From a bacterium (GTDB taxonomy: Bacteria; Orphanbacterota; Orphanbacteria; Orphanbacterales; Orphanbacteraceae), in NCBI GenBank assembly GCA_025782575.1, contig JALGYY010000041.1:1-64000 (forward strand): a DNA stretch of 64,000 nucleotides. Direction: 5' to 3'. How positions within the stretch are numbered: position 1 is the stretch's first letter; each line of letters starts with the position of its first letter. Below, in pieces: positions 4,463-58,141 of this stretch. A program made the translations under genes and the position numbers. Under the pieces are notes generated by a model. It saw only the letters and a list, made by a program, of their open reading frames with translations, did no database searches and was not told the origin of the DNA.

Positions 4463-4520
4463 GAATTGAGTCGGCGAGACTCCAGATGGCGTCCTTGGTG
4501 AGATCATGGATTTTGGGGCC

Positions 4521-4617: not shown

Positions 4618-4633
4618 ACTTGGACTGAGGAAG

Positions 4634-5029
4634 ATGATCAAGCTGTCCAGATCTAAGAAGAAGCTCAATCTTGAGCGGCTGAAGTATCTGTTCAACGAAG
4701 CCGGATGGGATGACAAGACTTGCGATGACGAAAGACTCAGAGACATGATTGAGAATTCGTAGCTAATCGTAACGGCTTGGGATGGCGACATCATGGTCGG
4801 CTTCGTGAGATCGACGACGGATCGAGCGTTTGACGGGCAGATTAACAACCTTGTGGTAGATTCAGACTACAGACAAAAAGGGATTGGTGAGCGGATCGTA
4901 AGGACTATCCTCCAAGAAGACCCCAAAGTGACCTATATCCTGCGGTCCGATCCAGGGAACGAAGGATTCTTCAGAAAATTGGGGTTTGAGCATGCGAACT
5001 CCGCTCTGATTCATAGGCGGAGAGAGTAG
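4634..5029 (+). pseudogene. GNAT acetyltransferase interrupted by an in-frame TAG (cassette)
   Basis: Reading from ATG 4634 (GAGG at 4627-4630), the frame gives a helix rich in K/L and then NEAGWDDKT, stops at TAG 4760-4762, and continues in the same frame with LIVTAWDGDIMVGFVRS, INNLVVDSDYRQKGIGERIV and GFFRKLGFEH. The Q/R-x-x-G-x-G/A acetyl-CoA loop (RQKGIG) and the C-terminal FFRKLGF are intact. The stop lies inside a conserved block, so one base change to TAG broke an otherwise complete gene of about 131 codons. A downstream fragment could start at ATG 4793. Amber suppression is a possible alternative, but TAG terminates several genes here, including this one. Confidence 0.8.
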
Positions 5030-5093
5030 ACGTGGAGCGCATGTGCGCCAATACCGATGGACGATGAGCGAAAGCAGGCAGAGTGCTAACAAA

Positions 5094-5143
5094 GAAATGC
5101 AGCGGCCGCGGGCAGACCGCGCCGCTGATTTCTAACGTTAGCC
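5094..5143 (+). other. attC site 8 (short form)
   Basis: Left core TGCTAAC at 5094-5100 and right core GTTAGCC at 5137-5143. Arms AGAAATGCAGCGGC and GCCGCTGATTTCT pair almost perfectly. At 50 bp it is the shortest site in the array. Confidence 0.85.
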
Positions 5144-5156
5144 ACACACCTCGTGC

Positions 5157-5192
5157 TTGACAAGAGGTAGAACCCAAGTTATACTATTGACA
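5157..5192 (+). promoter_or_regulatory. Sigma70-type promoter of the MazF-type TA cassette, apparently leaderless
   Basis: TTGACA at 5157-5162, a 17-bp spacer, and TATACT at 5180-5185. The expected transcription start, about 7 bases past the -10 box, coincides with the A of the antitoxin ATG at 5192. No Shine-Dalgarno sequence is possible in such a transcript. Confidence 0.75.
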
Positions 5193-5434
5193 TGAAGACG
5201 GCAATCTCGATACCCGACGATCTCTACCGAGCTGCGGAGCGTGCCGCGAAGCGGCTTGGTCTGAGCCGCAGCGAACTCTATCGGCGGGCCCTAGGCGTGT
5301 TCCTCGACCGGAATGCCGACAAGCTTGTCACCGAGGCGCTGGACGAGGTGTATGGAGAAGGCTCAGCGGCCGGAGCAATCGATCCAGTTCTGCGACGGAT
5401 GCAGAGTGCATCTCTTCCCACCGACGAGTGGTGA
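5192..5434 (+). CDS. Ribbon-helix-helix antitoxin of a type II TA cassette
   Basis: 80 residues. The N terminus MKTAISIPDDLYRAAERAA with LGLSRSELYRRAL is a classic ribbon-helix-helix (MetJ/CopG-like) DNA-binding domain; the acidic C-terminal half would wrap the toxin. The stop overlaps the toxin ATG in TGATG, so the two are translationally coupled. It probably represses its own promoter, which lies directly in front with its start site at the ATG. The pair makes loss of this cassette costly to the cell, which is the accepted role of TA modules in long integrons. Confidence 0.9.
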   Translation: MKTAISIPDDLYRAAERAAKRLGLSRSELYRRALGVFLDRNADKLVTEALDEVYGEGSAAGAIDPVLRRMQSASLPTDEW

Positions 5435-5778
5435 TGAAGCGCGGGGAAATCTGGTGGGCCGACTTGCCCGAGCCACGCGGGTCGGAACCCGGCTACCGGC
5501 GACCGGTTCTCGTGGTCCAAGCCGACACCTTCAACGCGAGTCGGATCGGGACCGTCATCGTTGCGGTGGTCTCCTCCAACGTTCGACTTGCGGACGCGCC
5601 CGGTAACGTCCGCCTGACGCGCCGACAGAGCAAACTGCCCCGCGAGTCAGTCGTGAATGTTTCGCAACTCCTAACCTTGGATCGGTCCTTCCTGGTGGAG
5701 CGTGCGGGGAAGCTCTCGGCCCCTACGATGGATTTGGTTGAGTCTGGACTCCGCCTCGTCCTATTCTTGGCCAAGTAA
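5434..5778 (+). CDS. mazF: MazF/PemK-type endoribonuclease toxin (cassette)
   Basis: 114 residues. MKRGEIWWADL, RRPVLVVQADTFN, TVIVAVVSSN and SVVNVSQLLTLDRSFL follow the conserved order of the MazF/PemK SH3-like toxin fold, which cleaves mRNA at short sequence motifs. Length is normal and the frame is intact. ATG 5434 shares its A with the antitoxin TGA, and an upstream GTG in the same frame is less likely. Ends 7 bp before attC 9, leaving no room for another gene in the cassette. Confidence 0.9.
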   Translation: MKRGEIWWADLPEPRGSEPGYRRPVLVVQADTFNASRIGTVIVAVVSSNVRLADAPGNVRLTRRQSKLPRESVVNVSQLLTLDRSFLVERAGKLSAPTMDLVESGLRLVLFLAK

Positions 5779-5785
5779 CCCCGGT

Positions 5786-5883
5786 GGCTAACATGCGCTT
5801 GCAGTGGCCAAGCTCGGCCGTCACGTCGCTGGCAGAGTCAGCGCCACGCCCACGGCCTTGCCGCTGAAGCGAGCACGCTATGG
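5786..5883 (+). other. attC site 9, right core altered
   Basis: Left core GGCTAAC at 5786-5792. Arms TGCGCTTGCAGTGGCCAAGC and its partner around CCTTGCCGCTGAAGCGAGCA. The right core reads GCTATGG at 5877-5883 instead of GTTATGG, a change in the second base of the invariant GTT. The site is closely related to attC 14. Confidence 0.78.
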
Positions 5884-5895
5884 GAGTAAAAAGAT

Positions 5896-6294
5896 ATGAA
5901 CATCGAATGTAGAACTCCTACGGTTGATGAATATTTAGAAATACGAGAAACAACAAACTGGTGGAATGTAAAGAGGACAGCTACAGAAAACGCCTTAAGA
6001 GCCTCATTGTTTTCAGCTGTTGCAGTTGAAAATGAGACCGTAATTGGGTTTGGACGCATCGTCGGAGATGGTGGATTGTATTTCTATATTCAAGACTTGA
6101 TTGTACGTCCAGATTACCAAAACAAAGGAGTTGGAAAATCTTTAATGTCAGAATTGATGACATTTATTAAAGATAATGCTGAGCCAGGAGCATTTGTTGG
6201 TTTAATGGCAGCTAAAGGAGTCGCAAAGTATTATGAGACATTCGGATTCAAAATACGTGATGCAACAGCTCCCGGAATGTTTCAAGTAATCTAA
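5896..6294 (+). CDS. GNAT family N-acetyltransferase, low-GC cassette
   Basis: 132 residues. The acetyl-CoA binding segment YIQDLIVRPDYQNKGVGKSLM carries the Q-x-x-G-x-G motif, and KYYETFGFKIR is the usual C-terminal block. The acceptor is not predictable. Base use is strikingly A/T-rich with AAA, AAT and TTA codons, unlike every neighbouring cassette, so it probably came from a low-GC donor. A GGGAGTAAAAAG stretch precedes ATG 5896. Confidence 0.9.
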   Translation: MNIECRTPTVDEYLEIRETTNWWNVKRTATENALRASLFSAVAVENETVIGFGRIVGDGGLYFYIQDLIVRPDYQNKGVGKSLMSELMTFIKDNAEPGAFVGLMAAKGVAKYYETFGFKIRDATAPGMFQVI

Positions 6295-6304
6295 AAATAA
6301 CAGT

Positions 6305-6365
6305 TCATAACAAAGGCATGCAGTTGACTGGCCTCGCGGCCAGCAACTGAGGTCTGTCGTTATGC
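6305..6365 (+). other. attC site 10 (short form)
   Basis: Left core TCATAAC at 6305-6311 and perfect right core GTTATGC at 6359-6365. Arms GCAGTTGACTGGCC and GGCCAGCAACTG close over a TCGC loop. Confidence 0.87.
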
Positions 6366-6752
6366 CGCAGAAGGAACGCTACACCTGTCGTTCTTGACCT
6401 TCGCCCCATGGATCGCTTTCATATATAGTGCATGACCGAGAAGGAACTCGATACCCTCCTTCTGACAAAGGTCGGCGATCCAGTACCAGGTGAAGATGCA
6501 CTCGACCCCGACGACGAGTTCGTTCCGGTAGGGGTCGATTGCCCGAAGAAAAGCGGCCGGCTCGGCGGGGATGTTCTTGTGGAGCAGGATCTCCCCCTCG
6601 TGGGACAGGATGCAGAGATACATCCATCGTGTGTGGAGATCGATTCCGCAGTAGAACTGGCGGCGCTCAGTGTAGAATCTCATCGGAGGCCTCCTTGGTT
6701 GGAGTCAGGTACTCAGAGCCTACACTTGTAGGCTCCGAGGGGGCCTCCATAA
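6366..6752 (-). mobile_element. IS110-family remnant between two attC sites
   Basis: The segment contains the first third of an IS110-type transposase on the minus strand and about 70 bp of the sequence upstream of it. That upstream part has AGGAGG before the start codon and a perfect 9-bp inverted repeat, GAGCCTACA/TGTAGGCTC, at 6716-6735. On one side it touches the right core of attC 10, on the other it replaces the left core of attC 11. Members of the IS1111/IS110 group are known to target attC sites, which fits this position. Confidence 0.75.
6384..6683 (-). pseudogene. IS110-family transposase, N-terminal fragment
   Basis: About 100 residues match the N-terminal RuvC-like DEDD domain of IS110 transposases: GIDLHTRWMYLCIL (first catalytic Asp), ECIFTWYWIADLC (catalytic Glu), and LGHALYMKAIHGAKVKNDR. 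The match ends right after KNDR near 6384, and the frame then runs a few foreign codons to a stop. Full-length members have over 300 residues, so the catalytic C-terminal Asp and the whole serine-containing domain are missing. Start ATG at 6683 has AGGAGG upstream. Confidence 0.85.
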
Positions 6753-6885
6753 GAATCAAGGCGTTGCAGTTGACGGATCTTCGGCGTCACGTCCCTGGCT
6801 GGGGTTATACTGGAGAAAGTCCTGTGGGCTTGGAGCGCGCCAGGGCCGCGCCACCTCGCCCGCAGCTGAACGCTGGCTGTTAGCT
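6753..6885 (+). other. attC site 11, left core replaced by the IS110 remnant
   Basis: Right core GTTAGCT at 6879-6885. Arms AAGGCGTTGCAGTTGACGG and CCCGCAGCTGAACGCTGGC, with CCTGGCT and GCGCCAGGGCC near the tip, mark a normal attC stem. The expected RYYYAAC before AAGGCG is absent; the sequence there belongs to the IS fragment. An extra GGGTTATACTGGAGAAAG lies in the loop. Confidence 0.75.
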
Positions 6886-6930
6886 AGTTGGGCAGCGAAA
6901 CACTCTTACTCATAGCAACACAGTGCTTAA

Positions 6931-9153
<2,223 letters not shown>

Positions 9154-9205
9154 TCGTAGTAAAAAAGTCTTCGAGAGCTTCTGACAGGGCGGCGAAAAAA
9201 CGGTC

Positions 9206-9267
9206 AGCTAACAACCGGTTCCAGCGGACGGCGCTTGGTGCGCCGCCGCTGAACCTTGGCGTTATGC
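9206..9267 (+). other. attC site 12 (short form)
   Basis: Left core AGCTAAC at 9206-9212 and perfect right core GTTATGC at 9261-9267. Arms ACCGGTTCCAGCGGACGGCG and CGCCGCCGCTGAACCTTGG fold over CTTGGTG. It closes the katG cassette, leaving about 50 bp after the katG stop. Confidence 0.88.
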
Positions 9268-9320
9268 GGCGATGAGAATCGCGGAGTTGTTCCATCCGTC
9301 CAACTGTTAGGAAAAAAGCC

Positions 9321-9722
9321 ATGGATGAATCCTCGACTTCAGCCGTGCTGACCGGAACGAAGCTAACGCGGTGGGCTGCCCGGATACTCAGCACGTTGAT
9401 TCTGGTTTTCTGGGGTTTTTTTATCGTCGCGCACCTCTTCGGTGATGAGGGGGACGCATCCCGACCGCTCAGCGCCAGTGACTACGCCGGCCTCATAGCG
9501 ATGGGGGCGTGGCTGGTTGGTCTCGCGGTAGCCTGGAAGTGGGAGTTCCGTGGGGGGTTGACGACGCTCTTCGCATTCGGAATCGCCGCTGCCGCCAATT
9601 CGAATGTGCTCTCGTTTCCGTTTGTGATTGTCCCGATCACGGCTGGGCTCTTCTTAGCAAGCTGGTGGATGCGCAGAGAGACCAGAGACCGCATAGCCGA
9701 GGGCGGCACCAACGTCTTTTGA
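9321..9722 (+). CDS. Four-helix membrane protein, unknown function (cassette)
   Basis: 133 residues with helices at roughly 17-40, 50-70, 77-95 and 98-116, the last followed by a basic WWMRRETRDR segment. The pattern resembles small uncharacterised bacterial membrane proteins of about 130 residues, but I cannot name the family with certainty. AGGAAAAAAGCC lies upstream of ATG 9321. Sole gene between attC 12 and attC 13. Confidence 0.75.
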   Translation: MDESSTSAVLTGTKLTRWAARILSTLILVFWGFFIVAHLFGDEGDASRPLSASDYAGLIAMGAWLVGLAVAWKWEFRGGLTTLFAFGIAAAANSNVLSFPFVIVPITAGLFLASWWMRRETRDRIAEGGTNVF

Positions 9723-9772
9723 CAGTCATGGTGCCTCCCCGACGATCTGGTGGAAGCGATCATAGTGGCGCC

Positions 9773-9832
9773 GCAGAACTTGCCGCTGCAGCCGACCGGC
9801 TTCGCCGGCGGCTGTGCGGCAAGACGTTATGC
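9773..9832 (+). other. attC site 13 (short form)
   Basis: Left core GCAGAAC at 9773-9779 (two mismatches) and perfect right core GTTATGC at 9826-9832. Arms CTTGCCGCTGCAGCCG and CGGCTGTGCGGCAAG close over a CCGG-CTTC-CCGG tip. Confidence 0.85.
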
Positions 9833-9857
9833 CGGAGATCGTGCCGGCAGGTGATGA

Positions 9858-10607
9858 ATGCGAAATCACACTGAAAAGATGACGGTACTTGTGGTTGGAG
9901 CAACTGGCGCAACGGGCCAGCTGCTCGTTAACCAGTTGCTGACGCGTGGGCAGCACGTCCGAGCGGTTGCGCGATCACCCGAAAAGCTCCCGATAGACTT
10001 GAGGAATCACGAGCACCTGTCCGTGACCGCTGCAAGCGTTCTGGACCTGAGCGACACCGAGATGGCCCATCAGGTCAGCGGGTGTGACGCGGTCGCCTCA
10101 TGCCTGGGTCACAACCTCAGCCTCAAAGGCATGTTCGGCCAGCCGCGCCGCCTTGTGACGGATGCAACGCGAAGGCTCTGTGGCGCCATTAAGTCAAATG
10201 GTGGGAAACACCCAACCAAGTTCGTACTCATGAACACGACGGCGAACAGCAATCGCGATCTCAGTGAGCGCATTTCTCTGAGGGACAGGAGCGTCCTCGC
10301 GGTTCTCCGGGCGGTCTTGCCTCCAGTGGGTGACAATGAAGACGCGGCGGACTATCTGCGCAGCGACATCGGCCAGAACGATAGCTCCGTCGAATGGGCT
10401 GTCGTTCGTCCCGACAATCTGATTAACGAGCCTGAGGTCACTGAGTATCAGGTGCATCCATCGCCGGTCCGAGGCATCATATTCGACGCTGGACGAACGA
10501 GTCGAATCAACGTTGCCCACTTCATGGCTACATTGATCGTTGACGACGGGACATGGAGTGAGTGGAAGGGGCAGATGCCGGTGCCCTACAACAAGGGTCC
10601 GTCGTGA
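9858..10607 (+). CDS. NmrA-like NAD(P)-binding protein (cassette)
   Basis: 249 residues with the Rossmann motif GATGATG early in the chain and ARSPEKLP after beta-2, where the Arg would favour NADP. KFVLMNTTANS and EWAVVRPDNLIN match the central and substrate-side blocks of atypical SDRs (SDR_a5/NmrA-like). It is clearly diverged from the NmrA-like gene at 2120-3058, so they arrived as separate cassettes. ATG 9858 has AGGTGA 3 bases upstream; ATG 9879 is a possible later start. The substrate is unknown. Confidence 0.87.
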   Translation: MRNHTEKMTVLVVGATGATGQLLVNQLLTRGQHVRAVARSPEKLPIDLRNHEHLSVTAASVLDLSDTEMAHQVSGCDAVASCLGHNLSLKGMFGQPRRLVTDATRRLCGAIKSNGGKHPTKFVLMNTTANSNRDLSERISLRDRSVLAVLRAVLPPVGDNEDAADYLRSDIGQNDSSVEWAVVRPDNLINEPEVTEYQVHPSPVRGIIFDAGRTSRINVAHFMATLIVDDGTWSEWKGQMPVPYNKGPS

Positions 10608-10681
10608 CCGGCTTTGTTCGTGAGTCGAAGCGACTGCTCGGCAGGGAATCCTTGGATCAATCGACAGCGGGTGGTAGCTCG

Positions 10682-10781
10682 GCATAACAATCGCTTGCAG
10701 TGGTCAAGCTCGCCCGTCGCGCCGCTGGCAGAGCCAGCGCCGCCCCAGCGGCCCTTGCCACTGAAGCGAAGGGCGTCATAT
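10682..10781 (+). other. attC site 14, right core altered
   Basis: Left core GCATAAC at 10682-10688; arms CGCTTGCAGTGGTCAAGC and TTGCCACTGAAGCGAAGG; inner GCGCCGCTGGCAGAGCCAGCGC tip. The right core reads GTCATAT at 10775-10781 where GTTATAT or similar would be expected. Strong similarity to attC 9. Confidence 0.78.
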
Positions 10782-10795
10782 GAACGAGATCAAAC

Positions 10796-11104
10796 TTAGG
10801 CGATAATACGGGATAGCTGCTTCTTCGTTACACCCAACGCAAGAAGTGCTTTAAGGAGAAGATCGAAAGTTACAGTGGGATCGCCAGCTTCCATCTTCGC
10901 GACGCGTGATTGGCTTGAGCCGACGAGCTTCGCCAGCTCGAATTGCGTTGCCCCGTGCTTAAGACGCGCCTCTCTGAGGCTCGCGCTGAGTGCCAGCTTG
11001 AGTTCAATGAATCGGGACTCCTCTGGCGTCAGTTCTAGGAAGTCGCTTGCACTTCCAATGCTCCAACCCTTGGCCTTGAGCTTTTTTTTCTTCTTACTTT
11101 CCAT
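10796..11104 (-). CDS. higA: HigA-type XRE-family antitoxin (cassette, reversed)
   Basis: 102 residues. After a lysine-rich N terminus, residues about 40-90 form an XRE helix-turn-helix: LREARLKHGATQFELAKLVGSSQSRVAKMEAG. Gene order toxin-antitoxin, 1 bp after the toxin stop, is that of higBA. It reads against the array direction, which is common for TA cassettes with their own promoter. It probably binds the palindrome in the upstream promoter. Intact, while its toxin partner is broken, so it may now act only as a repressor or solitary antitoxin. Confidence 0.88.
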   Translation of the reverse strand: MESKKKKKLKAKGWSIGSASDFLELTPEESRFIELKLALSASLREARLKHGATQFELAKLVGSSQSRVAKMEAGDPTVTFDLLLKALLALGVTKKQLSRIIA

Positions 11105-11105
11105 T

Positions 11106-11453
11106 CTAGTCTACGACTTTCGAATCGGCATCGTATTGCTTCGCGCGTCGCTTGCAAGTTTCGATAACCAACTTCGGGGTCTTTCCCGTCTTTTTCTTGA
11201 AGGTATCCAAAATCAGAATCGCGTCCGGATCGATTCGGTAGATAATCCTCCACGTGGATGCTTCGTCGTTGACTCTCAGCTAGTGGAATGCTGGGCCAAT
11301 CGAAGGCATCGGCCTCGAATGTGGCATTCCCAACGATACTCCAGCTTGCAGGCACCGAAGCAGATAGCCGGTTTCGATTCGAGCTGCACTGCTCAATGGC
11401 GGCGATTTAACTTCCCCCTTGAGCCAAACCAGCGGCTTATCCGTTGGTGTCAT
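11106..11453 (-). pseudogene. higB: HigB-type toxin inactivated by an amber codon
   Basis: From ATG 11453 the frame matches Gp49-like HigB ribonucleases: KPLVWLKGEVKSPPLS, LLRCLQAGVSLGMPHSRPMP, then FH, a stop TAG (complement of 11280-11282), and in the same frame LRVNDEASTWRIIYRID, LDTFKKKTGKTPKLVIE and CKRRAKQYD to a normal stop at 11106. Relatives have Glu at the stop position (C-H-E-L-R), so GAG to TAG is the simplest explanation. The truncated product lacks the catalytic half of the fold. Confidence 0.82.
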
Positions 11454-11459
11454 AAGATG

Positions 11460-11488
11460 ATTATATGTCATATCTGACATTGTGTCAA
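11460..11488 (-). promoter_or_regulatory. Consensus promoter with palindromic operator for higBA
   Basis: On the minus strand, TTGACA (11483-11488), a 17-bp spacer and TATAAT (11460-11465) are both perfect consensus boxes. The spacer contains the perfect palindrome TGTCAGATATGACA at 11466-11479, a likely HigA operator that would block polymerase. The predicted transcript start falls on the toxin ATG at 11453, so the mRNA appears leaderless. Confidence 0.8.
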
Positions 11489-11552
11489 GAGGGAAGAGGC
11501 AATTTCTCCTTTTTCAAGGGATTGGAGAGTTGGGTCGAATAGGCTATGAATC

Positions 11553-11665
11553 ATATAACATCAGCATGAATCAGCCGAAAGCTCTCTCGCGGCCCTGGCT
11601 TGCGCCAGGGCCGCGCCAACCGGCTCCGCCAGCCGCTTTCGCTGGTTATGCTGGAGGTGTTAGCT
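11553..11665 (+). other. attC site 15
   Basis: Left core ATATAAC at 11553-11559 and right core GTTAGCT at 11659-11665. AACATCAGCATGAATCAGC pairs with GCTGGTTATGCTGGAGGTGTT, and the tip is CGCGGCCCTGGCTTGCGCCAGGGCCGCG-like (arms 11589-11618). A second GTTATGC inside the right arm at 11645-11651 is part of the stem. Confidence 0.87.
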
Positions 11666-11679
11666 CGGCAAATTAGGGC

Positions 11680-11717
11680 TTGACTCGTCTGCACAGATGA
11701 TGCATATTCATGCATAT
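11680..11717 (+). promoter_or_regulatory. Probable promoter/operator of the vapBC cassette
   Basis: TTGACT at 11680-11685, 17 bp, and a weak -10 CATATT at 11703-11708. The start would fall at 11715-11716, on the ATG at 11716. The octamer ATGCATAT occurs twice, at 11700-11707 and 11710-11717, 10 bp apart on one DNA face, a plausible VapB binding site overlapping the start. Confidence 0.5.
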
Positions 11718-11913
11718 GAGAACTACACTAAACATCGAAGAAGACCTTCTCAAGCAAGCCGCTCGACTGACCGGACTGAAGGAAAAGACAGCTCTCGTTC
11801 GCCGAGGACTTGAAGCATTGATTGCTCTTGAGAGTGCACGTCGCCTGGCGGCTCTCGGTGGTAGCGAGAAGAAGCTCAAGCCTGCTTCTCGGCGCCGCAC
11901 GAAGGCAACATGA
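11716..11913 (+). CDS. vapB: VapB-type antitoxin (cassette)
   Basis: 65 residues. MRTTLNIEEDLLKQAARLTGLKEKTALVRRGLEALI is the ribbon-helix-helix of the VapB (DUF2191-like) group; the tail is basic rather than acidic. ATG 11716 gives the canonical start; ATG 11710 would add Met-His. The TGA overlaps the ATG of vapC (ATGA), so the pair is coupled. Confidence 0.88.
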   Translation: MRTTLNIEEDLLKQAARLTGLKEKTALVRRGLEALIALESARRLAALGGSEKKLKPASRRRTKAT

Positions 11914-12266
11914 TCTTGGTAGATACTTCTGTTTGGATCGACCACTTACGTAAGGGCGATCAAGGGCTTGCAAGGCTTCTGAACGAAGGTGTAGTCCTAT
12001 GCCATCCGTTCGTGATTGGCGAATTGGCTTGCGGCAACCTGAAGAATCGTACGGAGATTCTCTCTCTGTTGGCCGCGCTTCCCATCTCCTCAGTCGCCAG
12101 CCACCAAGAAGCAACGCACTTGGTCACTGATCGAAAGCTAGCGGGAAAGGGTATCGGCTGGATCGATGTCCACTTGCTGGCTTCAGCTCTCTTATCAAAT
12201 TGTACGCTGTGGACGAAGGACAATGCCCTTGGAGCAATTGCTCGGACTATCAAGGTATCAGCCTGA
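11910..12266 (+). CDS. vapC: VapC-type PIN-domain ribonuclease toxin (cassette)
   Basis: 118 residues. The four acidic residues of the PIN active site are visible: Asp5 (LVDTSVWIDHL), Glu38 (GELACG), Asp86 (IGWIDVHLLASA) and Asp104 (LWTKDNAL). They would bind Mg2+ for cleavage of tRNA or rRNA, as known for VapC toxins. Frame intact and of normal length. The 3' end is followed by an IS200-type right end instead of a clean attC. Confidence 0.92.
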   Translation: MILVDTSVWIDHLRKGDQGLARLLNEGVVLCHPFVIGELACGNLKNRTEILSLLAALPISSVASHQEATHLVTDRKLAGKGIGWIDVHLLASALLSNCTLWTKDNALGAIARTIKVSA

Positions 12267-47967: not shown

Positions 47968-49635
47968 TTACTTCACTCTGAGAATGGAGCCGGTCGACAC
48001 CTGCCCACCCTGTCGACCACGCACCAGATAACGCCCTGCGGCAACAGAATTCCCGCTGTGATCAAGACCGTCCCAATGGGCGACCCGTCTGCCTGCTCCG
48101 CCAGCATCGATCAGTTTCAATTCGCGGACAAGCCGTCCCCGGATATCGAAGACAGCAAGGGAAAGGGCGGAAGCAGCTCTGTTCCCATCCAACTCGAACA
48201 GGATCGAGGTATTCCCGCGAAATGGATTCGGGGCTGCGAAAATCCGGCTACCCCGGACAGGTATCAGGCCGGTTTCAACGCCGGTGGCCAACTCGTTCTG
48301 CATGTTGAGGACGGCCTGATAAACACTGAGACGCCCGTCACCGAGACCGCTGTCGTAGGGCTCATTCGCCGGGATCTGATCGATAGGCGACGCCGATCCG
48401 TAGATCATACTTCTCGCATTCTCCAGGCTATCCTGCGGAGCCATTTCACGAAGAAGGGCGAGCGCTCCGGAAACAAACGGCACGGCAAATGAGGTGCCGC
48501 TTCCCTGTGCGTACAGACCACCAGGATAGCTACTGTAAATGCCGTCCCCCGGGGAGACGAGGTTGATCTCGTCGTTGTAGTTACTGAACGCCGCCTTCAC
48601 ATCGGTCGAATCGACGGCTCCGACTGAAATCACCTTGTTGAAGCTGGCAGGATAAACGATAGAAGTATCGGTATTGCTGTTTCCTGCCGCACCGACAAGC
48701 ATGGCGCCGGCATCCCATGCGCTCTTCCCTGCGAGCTCCAACGGCTTGGCCTGGGCTGAGAGGCCGACGCTCAAGTTGATGATATCGGCCCCCTGGCTTA
48801 CGGCATACTCGATCCCCTTGATGAGATTCGCCAGAGTGCCGAATCCATCATCGTCGAGTACCCGGATCGGGAGTATCACCGCGCCCGGCGCTGTAGCCGC
48901 CACGATTCCAGCGACCATCGTTCCATGACCGAACCCTTCATCGATCAGTCCGTCGAGATCCTCATCGATTCCGTTCGAAGTCTCTGTCGGATCGGCGTCG
49001 TTCTGGACAAAATCATATCCGGCCGGCGACAGTTTTCCCGCAAACAGCGGATGTGCAGGATCGATTCCCGTGTCGAGAATGGCGATGGTCATCCCTTGAC
49101 CCGTACTGATTGTGTGCGCCTGGGGCAAACCGATCCTGTCAAATGCGCCCTGATCGACGTACTCGGTAAAACTGGAGCCGATTGCCACGACGATAATGGC
49201 ACTCTCCGCCTCAGGTGATTCCAGAATGTAATTGGGGTCCGAACCGGCGATGTCAAGATCGAGGTCAAGATCGGCGTCGCAATCGAGGACAGTGACACCT
49301 GCGGCAGGCCGCAACAGATAGGACTCAGGACCGATCTGCTCGATCGTTATAGTTCCCCACGTTGCATTGATCGAATCGATCGACGCACCTGGCTGAAGTT
49401 GGACGAGTACTTGATCAGGAACGAAAGCATCGGCTGCGAAAACCGACGTCCACATGAAGGCGGAACAGATCAGACTGAGGCCCAACTGACTAAATCTGCG
49501 GCACTTAGGCCACGATCGGGCGAACAAAGCTCCGGGTCTCCTCACTGCTGCTGCCAGATGATTCCCGCAAATGGGGCTATTGCGGTTGAAAAGCATCATA
49601 CCATTGAGATATAATTGTGTCAATCGATTGAGCAT
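47968..49635 (-). CDS. Secreted subtilisin-like serine protease with FlgD-like module
   Basis: 555 residues. After a long N-terminal extension and signal segment (LGLSLICSAFMWTSVFAADA, about 51-70) come a short propeptide, the catalytic triad Asp188 (AILDTGID), His237 (GHGTMVAG), Ser382 (GTSFAVP), and oxyanion Asn319 (AAGNS). NGIDEDLDGLIDEG is an acidic, calcium-type insert. The last 90 residues (FAAPNPFRGNTSILFEL ... GRLVREL ... GRYLVRG) are the same kind of C-terminal module as in the five-repeat proteins. Cell-surface or secreted protease. An internal Met near residue 61 is too late for a signal. Confidence 0.93.
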   Translation of the reverse strand: MLNRLTQLYLNGMMLFNRNSPICGNHLAAAVRRPGALFARSWPKCRRFSQLGLSLICSAFMWTSVFAADAFVPDQVLVQLQPGASIDSINATWGTITIEQIGPESYLLRPAAGVTVLDCDADLDLDLDIAGSDPNYILESPEAESAIIVVAIGSSFTEYVDQGAFDRIGLPQAHTISTGQGMTIAILDTGIDPAHPLFAGKLSPAGYDFVQNDADPTETSNGIDEDLDGLIDEGFGHGTMVAGIVAATAPGAVILPIRVLDDDGFGTLANLIKGIEYAVSQGADIINLSVGLSAQAKPLELAGKSAWDAGAMLVGAAGNSNTDTSIVYPASFNKVISVGAVDSTDVKAAFSNYNDEINLVSPGDGIYSSYPGGLYAQGSGTSFAVPFVSGALALLREMAPQDSLENARSMIYGSASPIDQIPANEPYDSGLGDGRLSVYQAVLNMQNELATGVETGLIPVRGSRIFAAPNPFRGNTSILFELDGNRAASALSLAVFDIRGRLVRELKLIDAGGAGRRVAHWDGLDHSGNSVAAGRYLVRGRQGGQVSTGSILRVK

Positions 49636-50672: not shown

Positions 50673-53546
50673 TCAGGGATTCCCGGTCTTTCGGCGTTTT
50701 AGAAAGCGGAGCGGTTTCGGACTTCCCATGACCTGGAAGGGCGCCCAGAAATAGGGGTGGGGGTGCTTTTTCCGAATCTCTTTTGCCGCGATTCCGGCAG
50801 CTTCCGGTTTTGTACGGCCATCTCGAAGTGAGCCGTAGAATTGACTCATCCAGTCAGCAGTCACTTCATCCCTCACCCGCCAGAGACTGACGACGAGAGA
50901 TGTCGCCCCCGCCAGCATGAATCCGCGTGCCAGACCGATCAGTTCATCTCCCTTTCTGACGAAACTGCTACCGGTCCTGCACGCACTCAGTGTCACGAGT
51001 TCGGAATTGAGCCGGGCGTCGGACAACTGATAGAGATGGAGATCCTCCGCACCAAGAGCAAGAGACGAGAACGAGGGGTTATCGGCCCGGAAACGGCCAT
51101 GAGTCGCCAGATGAATGAGAGGCGATTCGCTACAGGTATCGATGAAGTCCCGGACTGTCGTGCTGGTCATCGAAATTACATCGTTCCCGACAATACCCGC
51201 GACCGCCTCTGTTTCCCGCTTGACCGACGCGAGCCCGCCCCCCTCCAGGCCGAGCAGGAATGGTTTGCCCCGATTTCCACGAATCCTTCGATTTCTACAG
51301 AGCCGATCAATGGTCGCGCTCGGTGCATAGCGAATTCTGTATCGCTCACCGACCGGTAAACGGCCGTCGTCGAGAGCATGAAATGGGAGGGCATGCAGGA
51401 ATCGATGGGGGACCACCAGAACGGATCGGGTCTTGATTTCATTGTCGATCGGCCGCCAAAGGTGATCATAGAGCGCCCTTGTAATTCGAAGCGCGGATTC
51501 GGTGAGATAGTCGATCCTTCTTTCGAGAAACCGATCAGGCAGGGCGAAGTGATCGATCTGTGCCGCGAACTGCCTGAGCAGATTTTCGATTGTCTCGGAT
51601 GAAGCATCCAGAGTGACGAGACGCTTCGTGTCCCTGGTGACAAGGAGAGCATAGATTTTCGTGCCGACAATCACGTACTCGACGAGAGTTTCCGCTCGGG
51701 GAAGTGCCGCCCGCATCACGTCGAATGAATCCGGATCAATGGTTTTCAGCCCGGCACCGGATCGTTCGGCCACCACCCTCCTCTCCTCGATGATTTTCCG
51801 TTCACAAGATCGGATCCCCTTCTTGATACGGGCCAACCTCGATCGGTCAGCCCCCTCCTGCCGAAGCGATTCCTCCTGGAACCGGTTTCGAAACCAGCTG
51901 AGCCGGGTTTCCTGGCGGGAAAGACGTGAATTGCTGTATGAATTCGAACCGGTCGCCAGCAATTGATCAAGAAGCGAACGTGAACGTCCACGCTCAGCGA
52001 TTTCGAAGACCCGCCGCACCCGCGGGGATCTTCCCGACTGCAGGACCAACTGGAGAAGTTCATCATAGAGACCGGCTTGTGTGCCGGAAAATGAAACTCG
52101 CAGCTCATCGCTCCCCAGCTCCATCCTCATACGCTCGGCGATCTTAGCTGCCGACTCAAATGCGGCCACTCCACGTCTGCCCGCTCCCGTGTCGGCGTAG
52201 GCGCGCCCCATAAGCAACCGCCCCTGAAATCGAAGCCAGGGATCCCCGATCTGCCTTTCCAGTTTCATTGCGTTTCTCAGTTCCGATAAGGCACGCTCCG
52301 GACGGCCCGCTCTCAACTCGATTGAGGCATGAATCTGAAGGCGCAGCATTTCGATGGAAGTCACGGTCGAACCGCGCAGTAGTTTACTTGCATGCTGAAA
52401 GGAGAGCCTGGCAGCCTGGATCCTCCCTCGACGTCCCTCGTGTTCGGCAGTTCGAAGGGATGCGAGCCCGGCGCGTATGGGCAGGTCTTCTCCCTCAAAC
52501 AGACGGCGGGCCCTTCGAAATCGGGTCAGTGCTTCTGCGTTCCTACCCAGTTCGCTGAGCGCTCGACCCGCAATCACGAGAGACAAGCCTCCGTCATAAC
52601 GAAGCCTGTTCTCGAGGAACACCTGGGCCGCGCTGTCTGCAATCGTCGCCGCCTCCTCGGCCAGATGCAACCGGAGATAAACATCCGATCGATTGAGATC
52701 GCATTTAGCGACCTGAACGGGATCGGGGATTTTCTCAAATGTATCCCGCGCCTCCCCCAGATATCGAAGGGCTTCGTGATGACGAGAGGAGAGAACATGA
52801 AGGTGGCCGATATTGTGGGTGATCTGCGCCTCCAGCGCGAGATAACCGAGATCGTGCGCCGCCGACTTGGCCTCGCCGTAGGTGACGAGGGCTTCTTCGA
52901 ACTGGTCCATATAGGTCAGCACCGCCGCACGATTCTGATCGAGTCCGACTACGGCGGCATCCGACACTCCTTCCATCAGAAAGAGCTCGCGCGCGAGGTT
53001 GTACTCTTTGAGTGCATGTCGATAGTCATCGCGGGCGACATGGAGATTGCCCCGGTTCATGTGGTATTTGGCCAGATAGGTGCGGTCATCGGCACGAGTC
53101 AGGATCGGCCGGATCAACCGGGCATCACCGAGGGCCTCATCTCCCCGTCCCAGTAGAGCGAGCAGGCTCATGCGACCCACCATGGTGCGTGCCATCTCTT
53201 CTTTTTCGCCTGCCTCCCGATAGGCCGCGATCGACTGATCGTAGAATCGTAATGCTCGGTGGAGCTTGCCGGAAAAGAAGTGTGCCTCTGCCTGGGCTCT
53301 TCGAGCGATTGCCCGCGCATGAGCCCCTTTGAGCAGCCGCGCTACCTGCCACGCGACAGCAGCCAGCGACAGAGCGTTTGCGGGAGAGGAGCGCACCAAT
53401 TGCGCCACTTCGAGCTGGAGGTTTGATAGGTGCTCGATCCGCAGCCGGGATCGGAGTAAACGCAATACTCCGGCACTATGTTCTGAGCCCGCAAGGGCGA
53501 ACAATCGGGCCGTCACCGTATCGTGTCGTTTGTCTCCGAATCCCAC
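50673..53546 (-). CDS. TPR-CHAT caspase-like protease
   Basis: 957 residues. Residues about 50-500 are tetratricopeptide helices (for example HFFSGKLHRALRFYDQSIAAYREAG, YHMNRGNLHVARDDYRHALKEY). Residues about 640-940 are a CHAT domain: SVLVVPHRFLHALPFHAL, catalytic His816 in IHLATHGRF, catalytic Cys856 in LVTLSACRTGS, then ARGFMLAGATSLVVSLWRV. Both dyad residues are present, so cleavage after an unknown residue is expected. No signal peptide, hence cytoplasmic. It starts 11 bp after the anti-sigma candidate and is the last gene of the sigma operon. Confidence 0.94.
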   Translation of the reverse strand: MGFGDKRHDTVTARLFALAGSEHSAGVLRLLRSRLRIEHLSNLQLEVAQLVRSSPANALSLAAVAWQVARLLKGAHARAIARRAQAEAHFFSGKLHRALRFYDQSIAAYREAGEKEEMARTMVGRMSLLALLGRGDEALGDARLIRPILTRADDRTYLAKYHMNRGNLHVARDDYRHALKEYNLARELFLMEGVSDAAVVGLDQNRAAVLTYMDQFEEALVTYGEAKSAAHDLGYLALEAQITHNIGHLHVLSSRHHEALRYLGEARDTFEKIPDPVQVAKCDLNRSDVYLRLHLAEEAATIADSAAQVFLENRLRYDGGLSLVIAGRALSELGRNAEALTRFRRARRLFEGEDLPIRAGLASLRTAEHEGRRGRIQAARLSFQHASKLLRGSTVTSIEMLRLQIHASIELRAGRPERALSELRNAMKLERQIGDPWLRFQGRLLMGRAYADTGAGRRGVAAFESAAKIAERMRMELGSDELRVSFSGTQAGLYDELLQLVLQSGRSPRVRRVFEIAERGRSRSLLDQLLATGSNSYSNSRLSRQETRLSWFRNRFQEESLRQEGADRSRLARIKKGIRSCERKIIEERRVVAERSGAGLKTIDPDSFDVMRAALPRAETLVEYVIVGTKIYALLVTRDTKRLVTLDASSETIENLLRQFAAQIDHFALPDRFLERRIDYLTESALRITRALYDHLWRPIDNEIKTRSVLVVPHRFLHALPFHALDDGRLPVGERYRIRYAPSATIDRLCRNRRIRGNRGKPFLLGLEGGGLASVKRETEAVAGIVGNDVISMTSTTVRDFIDTCSESPLIHLATHGRFRADNPSFSSLALGAEDLHLYQLSDARLNSELVTLSACRTGSSFVRKGDELIGLARGFMLAGATSLVVSLWRVRDEVTADWMSQFYGSLRDGRTKPEAAGIAAKEIRKKHPHPYFWAPFQVMGSPKPLRFLKRRKTGNP

Positions 53547-53557
53547 GGGATCTTCAA

Positions 53558-54157
53558 TCAGGAAAAGTGAATCTCAATGCCCTCGACAGCTACTTCGTTG
53601 CCGGACAAATGCACTGCAAGCGAATATACACCCTCGGAGATACTCGTGAAGTGGAAGCCGCCAAGATCATCCGTCTTGCCGGACCGGCTCTTCCCTCCAC
53701 CGGACAGGATTACCGGAATGCCCTCCAGTTCATCGGTAAGCTGGTCGGATAGAATAATCTGGCCGGCGAGTTCGGCAGTGGATGATGAATCCTTCGTGAT
53801 CGTGAGCAGGATCTCAATTTCTCCTGCACGAAACACAAGCCGGCGTTCGTCAAGTGCGGCCTCTCTTTCTGAAGCGACGAGCTGACGTTGATCCTCGGAG
53901 TCGAACACAATTTCCGCCAGGAGCCTCTCCACCTGGTCCTTACCGATCATCTTCAAAACCATGGCTTCCGCTCTCGCCCTCAATGCATCGGGCGATTTTC
54001 TGAGACGATTCCCTTCGAGTCCCGCCAACAGATCACGGATCATCGCGGCTTTCTCCTCACACATCGTACATCCCTTCCGAAAATGATCCGGAACTGTGTC
54101 ACCGGCGGACTCGCAATGCTCGATCAGTTCTTCCCATGTCAGGTGCTTCTCGCTCAT
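53558..54157 (-). CDS. Zinc-finger-like anti-sigma factor candidate
   Basis: 199 residues. The N terminus HLTWEELIEHCESAG ... DHFRKGCTMCEEK has the H-x3-C-x2-C spacing of ZAS zinc-finger anti-sigma domains. A helical linker follows, and residues about 105-199 form a beta domain ending in a carboxypeptidase-regulatory-like unit (KSRSGKTDDLGGFHFTSISEGVYSLAVHLSG). No transmembrane segment is visible, so it would be soluble. Position between the ECF sigma gene and the TPR-CHAT gene makes it the likely sigma inhibitor and possibly a substrate of the protease. The function is inferred. Confidence 0.72.
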   Translation of the reverse strand: MSEKHLTWEELIEHCESAGDTVPDHFRKGCTMCEEKAAMIRDLLAGLEGNRLRKSPDALRARAEAMVLKMIGKDQVERLLAEIVFDSEDQRQLVASEREAALDERRLVFRAGEIEILLTITKDSSSTAELAGQIILSDQLTDELEGIPVILSGGGKSRSGKTDDLGGFHFTSISEGVYSLAVHLSGNEVAVEGIEIHFS

Positions 54158-54235
54158 CCCTTCCCTCTCTCCAAGCAGTCTGTCGGAGGAATTTCCCTCA
54201 GCTGCTCCATCGAGTAGTAGCTCGAGATGGTCAAC

Positions 54236-54739
54236 CTAATACATGTCATTCCGGTCAATCCGCTCGACAATCCGCCTGAGCTTCTCCAGGCATCGTGCCT
54301 TGGTGGGGCCGATGCTTCCCATGGCCAGCCCGAATTCCTCGGAGAGCTCTTTATAGGAAGGCTTTTCGGCTTGCATATACAGGCTCTCCAGAAGCGAGCG
54401 GCAGGGCTCACCCAGGTCATCCAGACCGGTCGCTACCAGCCTCCTCTTGTCGAGCTCTTCGTCCCACACTCGCGCCTCTTCATGGTTGACAAGATCCGGG
54501 TGTGCGGCGATCTCTGCTGGTTCAAAAGGTCTTTCGGTAGCTACCTTTCGAATGGCCGCTTTTGTCTGCCGGTAGGCGATGGAGAGTAGCCAGGATTTGA
54601 AACGGGCGCGATCGCGAAGCTGGGAGAGCTGATTCACTACTGCCGCCCAGATGGTTTGAAACACATCTTCAACGGTATGTTCATCAAGTCCCAGGTTACG
54701 AGGAACCGAGTACACCAGATTCCCGTACTCTTCGATCAT
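54236..54739 (-). CDS. ECF-type sigma factor
   Basis: 167 residues from ATG 54739. Region 2: LGLDEHTVEDVFQTIWAAVVNQLSQLRDRARFKSWLLSIAYRQTK; region 4: LESLYMQAEKPSYKELSEEFGLAMGSIGPTKARCLEKLRR, a helix-turn-helix. In the same frame the homology extends about 18 codons further upstream (ISACLRNEPRAWHV...), yet no ATG, GTG or TTG occurs there before a TGA near 54868. A rare start such as CTG at 54787 or 54784, or loss of the first helix, must be considered. Its targets are unknown. Confidence 0.88.
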   Translation of the reverse strand: MIEEYGNLVYSVPRNLGLDEHTVEDVFQTIWAAVVNQLSQLRDRARFKSWLLSIAYRQTKAAIRKVATERPFEPAEIAAHPDLVNHEEARVWDEELDKRRLVATGLDDLGEPCRSLLESLYMQAEKPSYKELSEEFGLAMGSIGPTKARCLEKLRRIVERIDRNDMY

Positions 54740-54907
54740 GACATGCCAGGCGCGCGGCTCATTTCTCAGGCAAGCGCTGATCAGCAGTTCGATCGACTTG
54801 AATTCGCTTTCGGTCCTGATCGGGGGCCTCCGATTGGTTGATTCGGCAAGATGCTCAGTTCTGACCCGTCAAATTGTACCACGCTGATCGACGAGATCGA
54901 TCCAGGT

Positions 54908-56827
54908 TCAGTTCCCGCCGAGATAGCCGAGGGCGCGGAGCCGTTCACGCGCTCCTCCCGGAAGATCGGCATTGTCGGGCGTCTCTCCTCCGACGCCGTC
55001 CATTCGCTCATCCAGTTGATGTGCCAGAAGATCGATCAACTCGAAATGGTCGGGGCGGGCAATCAGATTCCGGCTTTCACCCGGATCGGATGAGAGGTCG
55101 AACAGTTCCATCGTGCCGTCTCGATTGCTTCGGATCAGCTTCATCCTACCGACCTGAATCGATGTCTGCCCACCGGCTACCGGCGTGAACCCGATGTGGG
55201 GCTCCCCGCCAGCAGTCTCCTTATGACGCGAAAATATGGGATCGGCGAAGGGGGGATTCAGGATTGCCGCGATCCCCGCATCGCCGATCGCGCGCAGCCT
55301 GTAGCCCCCCCCCTGGTTCGCCGCTACTGAGTGGTCCGGTTCCCGGGGGTCCCTGACAATCAGAGGCACACGCAGCTGCTCATCATGAAGCCGGGATGTA
55401 TGTGTCATCACATCGTGGTCGCCCAAACCCTCACCGTGATCGGATATGAGAACCACGCGTGTCCGTCCGGTGAGATGGAGTCGGTCGAGAGCGCCCATCA
55501 GCTCGCCGACCGAGCGATCCGTGTAACTGACTTCAGCCGCGTAGGAGGCGCGGTAGATGCGAAGATCGCCTGCGCTCTCCAGCCTCGCGTAGCGAGGGAT
55601 TTCGACACCGGTAATCGGACGGGCCTCTTCGCCGAATTGCCGGGTTTCATACATGCTCGGATATGGTGGCGGCGCTTCATAGGGAGCGTGGGGATCATAG
55701 AAGTGTACCCAGAGAAAGAACGGGGCATCGCCGTTCCGTGTGAGCCAGGCCAATGCACTTGCCGTTACCGCTTCCGCATTTCTCTCCGACACCTGGTGTG
55801 TGGGAACTCGAAGCCGGAATCGTGATGTAATGGCTCCGAGGGAACCGTATTCCAGAACACGGCCTGCAATCGTCCGAAGGGATAAGCATTCAAAGTCGTC
55901 ATCGTAGTGGTCAAAGCCCCGATCGAGCCCGAAGTAGGAGTCCAGCGGAAATGCTGCTACGAAAGCTGCTGTGCCATATCCGGCCGAGCGAAAACCTTCC
56001 TGCAAAAGGGGGAGTTCATCCCGGGGTACGAGTTGGCCGTTATCGGTCAGACCATGGTCGAGGGGATGGACTCCGCTGAGAAGCGTCGTGTGACTCGGCA
56101 GGGTGATCGGAATGGAGCTTCGCACTTCATCAAATTGAACGCCCTCCCGTGCGAGGCGATCGATGTGAGGTGTTCGAACGACCGGGTTCCCGTAGCAACC
56201 GAGAAAATCGGGTCTCAATGTATCGATTGTAATCAGGAGAAGGTTGATTGGGAGTCTGTCTGATTGAATCGAGCTCCCCCTCGCTGCAGAAAACCGATCG
56301 CGATCGGACAGTGTCCCAAAAAATGAAAGGAGCAGAATGCCGGCGACCAGCATGATTGCCCCAGTCCCCCAGCTTCGGTTTCGATCCATCAGCCTGGAGA
56401 GAAGACGGCCTGACAGCGTTGAGACGAGAAGAATCGCCAGGATTCCCGCGGCCAGAACTCCGATGCCTGCAGGCGACTTGAGGGAGACACCCGGTCTTGT
56501 GAGGTAGGCCAGCACCGGAAGACCGATGGAGAGGAAGATTGGGACGGACCAATCGGTGGGAAAAGCTCGGCGGTCAGGCGTCTCGTCATCTTCTTTCTCC
56601 CCCCCTCTCCGAGGGACGATCAGGGAGGCGAGTGAAGAAATGATAGCTACTATGACTGCGTGAAAAAGCACGGAGAAAAGGAGCATTGCCCAGGATTCGG
56701 CCCCATCATCGAAGTGGAACGGCGCCAGAAGAGTGCTCCCCCTCGCCTCCCAGATCCCCAGAAGAGCGCCCATGAGGGCTCCTCCCCACGCGGCACATCT
56801 CATTGCATCGATTCTCGATCGGCTCAT
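54908..56827 (-). CDS. Membrane-anchored sulfatase-fold enzyme with Thr nucleophile
   Basis: 639 residues. About four transmembrane helices in residues 10-170, then an alkaline-phosphatase-superfamily domain: LLITIDTLRPDFLGCYG (metal Asp), SIPITLPSHTTLLSG, HFYDPHAPYEAP, VVLISDHGEGLGDH. Thr242 occupies the position of the formylglycine Cys (C-x-P-S-R reads T-L-P-S-H), as in phosphoethanolamine or phosphoglycerol transferases; the membrane domain fits such a lipid-linked transferase too. It ends 168 bp before the ECF start, on the same strand, so it may be co-transcribed with the sigma locus. Confidence 0.88.
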   Translation of the reverse strand: MSRSRIDAMRCAAWGGALMGALLGIWEARGSTLLAPFHFDDGAESWAMLLFSVLFHAVIVAIISSLASLIVPRRGGEKEDDETPDRRAFPTDWSVPIFLSIGLPVLAYLTRPGVSLKSPAGIGVLAAGILAILLVSTLSGRLLSRLMDRNRSWGTGAIMLVAGILLLSFFGTLSDRDRFSAARGSSIQSDRLPINLLLITIDTLRPDFLGCYGNPVVRTPHIDRLAREGVQFDEVRSSIPITLPSHTTLLSGVHPLDHGLTDNGQLVPRDELPLLQEGFRSAGYGTAAFVAAFPLDSYFGLDRGFDHYDDDFECLSLRTIAGRVLEYGSLGAITSRFRLRVPTHQVSERNAEAVTASALAWLTRNGDAPFFLWVHFYDPHAPYEAPPPYPSMYETRQFGEEARPITGVEIPRYARLESAGDLRIYRASYAAEVSYTDRSVGELMGALDRLHLTGRTRVVLISDHGEGLGDHDVMTHTSRLHDEQLRVPLIVRDPREPDHSVAANQGGGYRLRAIGDAGIAAILNPPFADPIFSRHKETAGGEPHIGFTPVAGGQTSIQVGRMKLIRSNRDGTMELFDLSSDPGESRNLIARPDHFELIDLLAHQLDERMDGVGGETPDNADLPGGARERLRALGYLGGN

Positions 56828-56860: not shown

Positions 56861-56920
56861 TTGCGCCGGGATGGATAATCGACTATACTTGCATTATAGT
56901 GCAATTGTGCATAGGTGCAA
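56861..56920 (+). promoter_or_regulatory. Promoter and ArsR-type operator of the arsenic module
   Basis: A weak -35 TTGCGC at 56861-56866, 17 bp, and TATACT at 56884-56889. Just downstream lie TTGCATTATAGTGCAA at 56889-56904, with perfect TTGCA/TGCAA arms, and a related TTGTGCATAGGTGCAA at 56905-56920. Tandem imperfect palindromes overlapping the start site are what an ArsR-type repressor would bind. Confidence 0.6.
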
Positions 56921-56934
56921 ACCAGGAAATCAGC

Positions 56935-57264
56935 ATGGAAACACTTCGAAATTTCCGGTTCTTCAAGGCGCTGAGCGATCCCACAAGGGGCGCCCTTCTG
57001 GCCCGCCTTCTGGAGACGGGTTGTTCGTGCACAGTGAGCGAAATCGCTGAATGCTGTTCAGTCGATCTCTCCGTCGTTTCCCGCCATCTCGCCACTTTGC
57101 GGCAAGCGGGAATCGTCGAGGCGAAGAGAGACGGCCGCGAAGTGAGGTACTCGGTCTGCTATCCGGAAGTGGTGCGCACACTTCGTGAGCTGGCGGACCA
57201 TATTGAAGAATGCTGTCCGGATGAGACCTCGTGTTGCTATGAGATACCGAATCCGGAAATGTGA
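56935..57264 (+). CDS. arsR: ArsR-family metalloregulator
   Basis: 109 residues. Winged helix: FFKALSDPTRGALLARLLE, CTVSEIAECCSVDLSVVSRHLATLRQAGIV, DGREVRYSVCY. Cysteines cluster at CSCT and AECCS in the DNA-binding helices and again in HIEECCPDETSCCYE at the C terminus, so arsenite or another soft metal could be held at more than one site. ATG 56935 follows AGGAAATCAGC. It should repress itself and arsM 28 bp downstream until metal binds. Confidence 0.92.
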   Translation: METLRNFRFFKALSDPTRGALLARLLETGCSCTVSEIAECCSVDLSVVSRHLATLRQAGIVEAKRDGREVRYSVCYPEVVRTLRELADHIEECCPDETSCCYEIPNPEM

Positions 57265-57292
57265 TTAATTGACTTAAATAAGGAATTGAATC

Positions 57293-58141
57293 ATGAATCG
57301 TTCAGAGGAAGTAAGAGATCGTGTCGCCGAAAGCTACAAAAAGGCCGTGCAGGATAGTCCTGGAAAGAGCTCGTCTTGCGGATGCGGCGATCCGGAAGCG
57401 AAGGGAATAGCCGCCTCGCTCGCCGGATATTCCAAAGAAGAGCTGAATTCCATCCCCCGTGATGCAGCCGTCAATTCGTTCGGTTGCGGCAATCCGGTGG
57501 CATTCGGCGAAATCAGTGAAGGCGAAGTTGTCCTCGACCTGGGGTCGGGCGCGGGAATCGATCTTCTTCTGGCCGCGCAGAAAGTGGGCGCTTCCGGCCG
57601 GGTAATCGGAATCGACATGACCGACGCCATGATCGAAAAGGCGGAAGCGAACATTCGGGAAGCGGGCGTCACTAACATCGAGGTCCGCAAGGGGATCATC
57701 GAGGATCTTCCCGTCGAATCGAGCTCGGTCGACTGGGTGATTTCCAATTGTGTGATCAATCTGTCACCGGAGAAATCGAAAGTGTTCGCCGAGATCGCCC
57801 GTGTTTTGAAGCCGTGTGGCAGAATGGTCGTTTCGGATATCGTTCTGGACAGCCCCCCCCAATGGGTACTCGACGTGCAAGGACTTTATGAATCGTGTTT
57901 GAGCGGCGCCATCTCCGAAAAGGATTACGCAGCAGGCTTGAGAGAAGCGGGTCTCGACGACGTCGATGTGAGAGGCCGACTTGACTACGACGGTGCTTCG
58001 TTGACCGATCTGTTCGGGTCAGCCACGACCGGCGAGAGTTGCTGCGGCACTTCGATTTCCCAGGATATCTCCAAATACGATCTCACCGAGCTGGAAGGCA
58101 AAGTAGCCACCGTTCGGTTCTTCGCCAGAAAGCCGGCGTAA
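57293..58141 (+). CDS. arsM: Arsenite S-adenosylmethionine methyltransferase ArsM
   Basis: 282 residues. SAM motif DLGSGAG at 82-88. The three cysteines that bind As(III) in characterised ArsM are matched by Cys65 (SFGCGNP), Cys153 (SNCVINL) and Cys202 (YESCLSGA); additional Cys pairs lie at SSCGCG near residue 29-31 and SCCG late in the chain. It methylates arsenite to volatile or less retained species. Pairing with the ArsR gene supports an arsenic rather than another substrate. TAAGGAATTGAATC precedes the ATG. Confidence 0.96.
   Translation: MNRSEEVRDRVAESYKKAVQDSPGKSSSCGCGDPEAKGIAASLAGYSKEELNSIPRDAAVNSFGCGNPVAFGEISEGEVVLDLGSGAGIDLLLAAQKVGASGRVIGIDMTDAMIEKAEANIREAGVTNIEVRKGIIEDLPVESSSVDWVISNCVINLSPEKSKVFAEIARVLKPCGRMVVSDIVLDSPPQWVLDVQGLYESCLSGAISEKDYAAGLREAGLDDVDVRGRLDYDGASLTDLFGSATTGESCCGTSISQDISKYDLTELEGKVATVRFFARKPA

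Follow-up and report, generated by a model that had tools for sequence, protein, structure and literature searches.

Gene arrangement of the locus

The minus strand of the window, i.e. the complete stretch of 64,000 nucleotides of bacterial DNA analysed here, contains an ECF sigma factor gene (54236–54820), a gene for a soluble candidate anti-sigma factor of 199 amino acids (53558–54157) and a gene for a TPR-CHAT caspase-like protease of 957 amino acids (50673–53546). The intergenic gaps amount to 78 nt between the sigma factor and inhibitor genes and to 11 nt between the inhibitor and CHAT genes. An earlier note on this DNA had placed the three genes in this order, and its positions are correct for all of them, but it missed a fourth one, an S8 subtilase gene (47968–49635, minus strand), which is the usual fourth member of the operon. 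The locus is conserved and wider than the earlier note said.

The sigma factor gene matches Sigma70_r2 (Pfam, E=9.8e-11) and TIGR02937 (E=1.1e-17). As judged from these matches, its product is an ECF sigma factor; it is composed only of the sigma2 and sigma4 regions and matches AlgU/SigH, SigW and sigmaE over both of them. The ATG listed as its start (54739) is internal, as the frame runs on upstream through region 2, and no ATG, GTG or TTG was found in the frame upstream of this region. The best start appears to be an ATC at 54820, six bases upstream of which a GGAGG sequence (54827–54831, minus strand) presumably acts as a Shine-Dalgarno-like site. A standard start codon thus appears to be missing from the gene, due either to a genuine ATC start, which could hold sigma factor levels low, or to a base error. 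No common promoter motif emerged when the regions 5′ of 80 sigma genes were searched.

The protease consists of TPRs followed by a CHAT domain (PF12770, E=1.9e-50, residues 688–942). Its catalytic dyad was rightly numbered and described as complete in the earlier note: His816 (codon at 51099–51101, minus strand) and Cys856 (50979–50981, minus strand) are invariant in 64 of 64 operon CHATs, and the dyad is also kept in 13 of 13 other CHATs from the same family of genomes. The window's own genome contains seven other CHAT loci, none of which has the three-gene order, and a sigma gene is found near two of them. At one locus of this genome (C17:208000–222000), an ECF-type sigma gene (11605–12189 of the locus), a Ser/Thr kinase gene with a DUF4384 domain (9924–11615) and a TPR-CHAT gene (6745–9927) are tightly packed; at another one (C17:98000–112000), a sigma-like gene (9374–10078) lies near a TPR-CHAT gene (5762–8923) without a middle gene.

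The S8 subtilase (Peptidase_S8, E=4.5e-46) carries an N-terminal hydrophobic segment, a FlgD-like C-terminal tail and a conserved triad (D188/H237/S382), and shares the N-terminal region common to operon S8 proteins. One plus-strand gene separates it from the CHAT gene. When a profile of 15 operon S8 proteins was run against the whole genome, the window S8 was ranked top with 328.7 bits, followed by a protein with 149 bits, and the block is therefore most readily interpreted as a set of four genes interrupted by one inserted gene.

Conservation and distribution

A search of 386 genomes with two sigma factors, that of the window and a copy from the same family, revealed strong matches (E≤1e-22) in about 14 genomes, whose surroundings mostly consist of the sigma gene, a gene for about 200 amino acids and a TPR-CHAT gene. 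Weaker sigma relatives (E of 1e-13 to 1e-18) have no CHAT gene beside them, which indicates that the link to CHAT is specific to one ECF subgroup. An alignment of seven sigma factors scanned over 85,000 named species yielded at least 584 relatives, and the best 80 of them were examined for their gene context. Among these 80, the middle gene is present in 57 and the complete sigma-middle-CHAT order in 51 of the 62 loci with more than 4.5 kb downstream; among the CHAT loci, 47 extend more than 5.6 kb downstream, and the S8 subtilase gene is present in 35 of these. The order is conserved far beyond chance. The three-gene linkage on which the earlier note had built its proposal holds across six named phyla, as assigned from record titles: Chloroflexota, Acidobacteriota, Planctomycetota, Actinomycetota (Rubrobacter), Pseudomonadota (Rubrivivax and others) and Armatimonadota. 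A search begun from Csx29-like CHATs added four more sigma-CHAT operons, in three of which a middle gene can be recognised, and a genome-contig scan with the CHAT protein alone as query gave no match.

Another genus of the same family contains a syntenic sulfatase-sigma-middle-CHAT arrangement with identities of 48, 30 and 40% for the sigma factor, middle protein and CHAT protease, respectively. The sulfatase gene is located immediately 5′ of the sigma gene in both genera (54908–56827 in the window and 4419–5825 in locus L061). Beyond it, an ArsR-type regulator gene and a gene for a methyltransferase resembling arsenite methyltransferase (56899–58141 of the window) form an ordinary arsenic cassette.

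Variants of the arrangement were also seen. One genome (G200) contains two tandem sets of sigma, anti-sigma and CHAT genes (L104, 3742–14918), one CHAT being split over two reading frames, and in another one (G260; L251, 2370–7359) a further ECF-like gene comes after the sigma, middle and CHAT genes and overlaps with the end of the CHAT gene. At three loci (L130, L154 and L155) the middle protein with its conserved arginine loop is encoded with no CHAT gene within the sequence examined; in L154 and L155 an S8 gene lies upstream of the sigma gene instead.

The middle protein

The earlier note had proposed the middle gene as that of a sigma inhibitor, and an anti-sigma type is borne out by profile comparisons. 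A profile of 74 members of the middle family matches RsiW (1.3e-5), ChrR (2e-4), RslA (3e-4) and DdvA (6.6e-4) over the first ca. 78 residues and transthyretin-like domains at its C-terminal end, and the NCBIfam model "anti-sigma factor" matches 34 of the 74 members (best 1.1e-10). The AlphaFold2 model of the window protein (pLDDT 87) displays four helices followed by a beta-sandwich. On the basis of profiles and model, we assign a class I anti-sigma domain to the three to four N-terminal helices of the family; in the window protein this domain spans approximately residues 1–78 and is followed by a transthyretin/CarboxypepD_reg-like beta-sandwich at approximately residues 104–196, for which Pfam reports a weak CarboxypepD_reg match (9.7e-4). 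A fold search with the model returned beta-sandwiches only and no anti-sigma structures. No transmembrane segment was found in the window protein. The zinc-finger-like character attributed to it in the earlier note is partly retained: an H-x4-C-x2-C motif is present, but Pfam calls no zinc finger in this protein, and the motif, occurring in at most 17 of 63 family members, is not their common denominator. In the nearest syntenic relative the zinc ligands are absent.

Conservation within the family peaks at Arg98 and Gly132 (98% each), followed by Phe168 (97%) and Pro56 (94%). Arg98 is located in a loop predicted with low confidence (pLDDT 63 for residues 91–100) that connects a short helix to the first long strand, i.e. 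at the junction of the anti-sigma domain and the beta-sandwich. It terminates the linker-loop motif FDS...R98 (residues 85–98; 53864–53905, minus strand). Its context is usually Gly-hydrophobic-Arg-Ser/Gly and Ser-Glu-Arg-Glu in the window protein. The single member without Arg98 (L163) has no CHAT gene nearby. Judged by its conservation and its predicted position, we infer the Arg98 loop to be a candidate protease cleavage or recognition site.

As the sigma and middle genes of the window share one reading frame, their read-through translation could be folded by AlphaFold2 as a single chain with Gln in place of the stop codon; the alignment comprised rows of 17 other loci treated likewise as well as unpaired rows. 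The pLDDT of the last anti-sigma helix, about 70 for the protein alone, rises to 92–95 in the presence of the sigma factor. However, the pTM of this model is 0.55, and the arrangement of sigma2 and sigma4 deviates from that in solved complexes with an rmsd of about 16 Å. Due to this score and the failed superposition of the sigma domain pair, the modelled contact between the sigma factor and the middle protein is a hint only.

Five loci (L126, L142, L144, L165 and L167) contain close sigma relatives which are accompanied by an anti-sigma factor of the zinc-finger-TM-FecR type and no CHAT protease. These systems share with the window locus the sigma subgroup and the type of N-terminal anti-sigma domain. 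In contrast, they are membrane-bound and equipped with a FecR sensor, whereas the window type is soluble and associated with CHAT. The sensor half therefore appears to have been swapped while the sigma factor and the anti-sigma domain stayed. CHAT was found only with the soluble form (51 loci with and 4 without, compared to 0 with and 2 without for the membrane form; Fisher p=0.009, at very small numbers). At L192, a close sigma relative has a FecR protein in place of the soluble anti-sigma factor.

Proposed function and alternatives

At the sequence level, the ECF sigma factor, the soluble protein with an anti-sigma domain, the TPR-CHAT protease, whose dyad is intact, and, in most cases, a secreted S8 subtilase constitute one conserved gene block. 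We consider it rather probable that this block encodes a cytoplasmic stress-response switch in which the activated CHAT protease would cut the anti-sigma factor and thereby free the sigma factor. In the resting state, the anti-sigma domain would hold the sigma factor. A signal sensed via the TPR array would activate CHAT, which would then cleave the anti-sigma protein; the most plausible site is the loop containing the near-invariant Arg98. The cut fragment might be released or degraded further, and the sigma factor would transcribe its targets, perhaps including its own operon and the secreted protease encoded therein. This proposal is based on the gene order (51/62), the frequent S8 gene (35/47), the full synteny, the anti-sigma profile matches, the invariant dyad, the conservation of Arg98, the exchange of the sensor half in sigma relatives lacking CHAT and the pLDDT rise of the last anti-sigma helix; moreover, protease-anti-sigma-ECF circuits working on the same principle have been described for CRISPR-linked systems (PMC10028731, PMC11417357). 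Weighed against it are the pTM of the read-through model and the poor superposition of its sigma domains, the outcome of the fold search, the restriction of the zinc motif to at most 17 of 63 members, the Ser-Glu-Arg of the window protein compared to the usual Gly-x-Arg, the lack of a shared promoter motif and the three loci L130, L154 and L155, where the middle protein has no adjacent CHAT. Much firmer than the cleavage mechanism are the assignment of the middle gene to the anti-sigma type and the operon linkage. A more far-reaching version is possible but tentative, namely that the locus represents a widespread CRISPR-free pathway in which a stress-sensing TPR-CHAT caspase would cut a soluble anti-sigma factor at a nearly invariant arginine, thereby freeing an ECF sigma factor with a secreted S8 protease among its output; the protease-gated sigma logic of CRISPR-linked systems would then be a general design of bacterial signalling.

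ECF sigma factors commonly transcribe their own operons. CHAT might accordingly be the output rather than the trigger, the sigma factor being freed by another signal acting on the anti-sigma factor and CHAT and S8 serving as effectors, e.g. as executioner or protein-quality proteases. The S8 subtilase in the block indeed looks like an output, and the co-occurrence of CHAT with the beta-sandwich half would also fit a CHAT protease held by the middle protein. However, the sensor half of the anti-sigma factor is of the TM-FecR type where CHAT is lacking, which ties CHAT to anti-sigma regulation, and an invariant arginine in a flexible loop fits a substrate; we therefore regard this alternative as unlikely. 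A scenario without cleavage, in which the middle protein inhibits both partners or serves as an adaptor, binding the sigma factor with its N-terminal half and restraining CHAT with its beta-sandwich, is in line with the two-domain build and with the pairing of the beta-sandwich form with CHAT, but appears improbable since it leaves unexplained why a loop residue, Arg98, is conserved above nearly all others. A redox or zinc switch like RsrA/ChrR with an incidental CHAT, as suggested by the H-x4-C-x2-C motif of the window protein and by ZAS-type relatives, is very improbable in view of the scarcity of the ligands, their absence in the nearest syntenic relative and the nearly constant retention of CHAT.

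If the proposed cleavage of the anti-sigma factor by CHAT is correct, a caspase-like protease with a predicted physiological substrate and cut site would be known for hundreds of species from no fewer than six named phyla. The pathway would be testable because Rubrivivax rivuli, Rubrivivax pictus and Rubrobacter taiwanensis, for which named strain records exist, are among its carriers.

Relationship to known systems

In the type III-E craspase, the TPR-CHAT protease Csx29 acts together with the sigma-binding inhibitor Csx30 and the ECF sigma factor CASP-sigma, whose release by cleavage has been proposed (PMC10028731). The window locus likewise combines a TPR-CHAT protease, a sigma inhibitor (its role being predicted here) and an ECF sigma factor, but it differs from craspase by having no cas genes among its neighbours, an inhibitor not detectably related, a CHAT in another branch and an additional S8 subtilase. 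In agreement with the earlier note, which had reported the absence of CRISPR-Cas genes, a whole-genome search for Cas1 was negative, and none of the neighbouring genes examined is a cas gene. The window CHAT reaches 61.4 bits on the Csx29 model NF041237, below the 300-bit cut-off, and is not a Csx29 orthologue.

The suggestion of the earlier note that the locus might be the chromosomal forerunner of the type III-E circuit was not supported by closer comparison. In its favour, operon CHATs score 53–65 bits on the Csx29 model and are the best match in most of their genomes (61.4 compared to 26.3 bits here), while five other TPR-CHATs of the genome family miss E≤1e-4. However, CHATs elsewhere outscore them with 84.7 bits, and a FastTree tree of the CHAT domain (a single method applied to a short alignment of 144 columns) places Csx29 outside the operon clade, in a group with non-operon CHATs (support 0.89 and 0.82). 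Moreover, the III-E sigma model matches another ECF gene of the same genome better than the window sigma gene, and none of the 74 middle-family members matches an NCBIfam Csx-protein model, so that such an ancestry is highly unlikely. Together with the absence of Cas1, these data suggest that the circuit plausibly works like craspase, with neither ancestry of nor membership in type III-E being established. A pair in another genome (G275:C277) was rejected as craspase-like: its "sigma" is an ORF of 445 amino acids directly followed by CHAT, with no middle gene.

The same protease-anti-sigma-ECF logic as proposed here is realised in the CalpL-CalpT-CalpS system of CRISPR type III, in which a cA4-activated Lon-type protease with a SAVED domain cuts an anti-sigma factor holding an ECF sigma factor (PMC11417357). 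CalpL is CRISPR-linked, whereas the window protease belongs to the TPR-CHAT type. In the literature searched, we found no description of a CHAT protease cleaving such an anti-sigma factor outside CRISPR.

The gene linkage itself is partly known. According to the account in PMC8999054, which cites Casas-Pastor 2021 and Huang 2015, genes next to those of ECF54 sigma factors encode CHAT, subtilase and carboxypeptidase(-regulatory) domains, and these three conserved neighbours correspond to those of the window sigma gene. The same account describes ECF54, whose model sigma factor is actinobacterial, as lacking an anti-sigma factor. In contrast, the carboxypeptidase-regulatory-like protein of the window locus has a predicted anti-sigma domain; compared by description, an anti-sigma factor may have been overlooked in ECF54. 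ECF270 and ECF271, found in Acidobacteria and Chloroflexi, are described in PMC8999054 with soluble ZAS-type anti-sigma factors of unknown mechanism and thus resemble the window locus, again by description, in pairing a soluble anti-sigma type with an ECF sigma factor; CHAT or subtilase are not mentioned in that description, whereas the window locus has both. The window locus joins the descriptions of ECF54 and ECF270/271. If the proposed switch is correct, the context reported for ECF54, with CHAT, subtilase and no anti-sigma factor, would become a testable pathway, and the craspase-style logic of a protease freeing a sigma factor would be found in a normal chromosomal system that uses no RNA guide.
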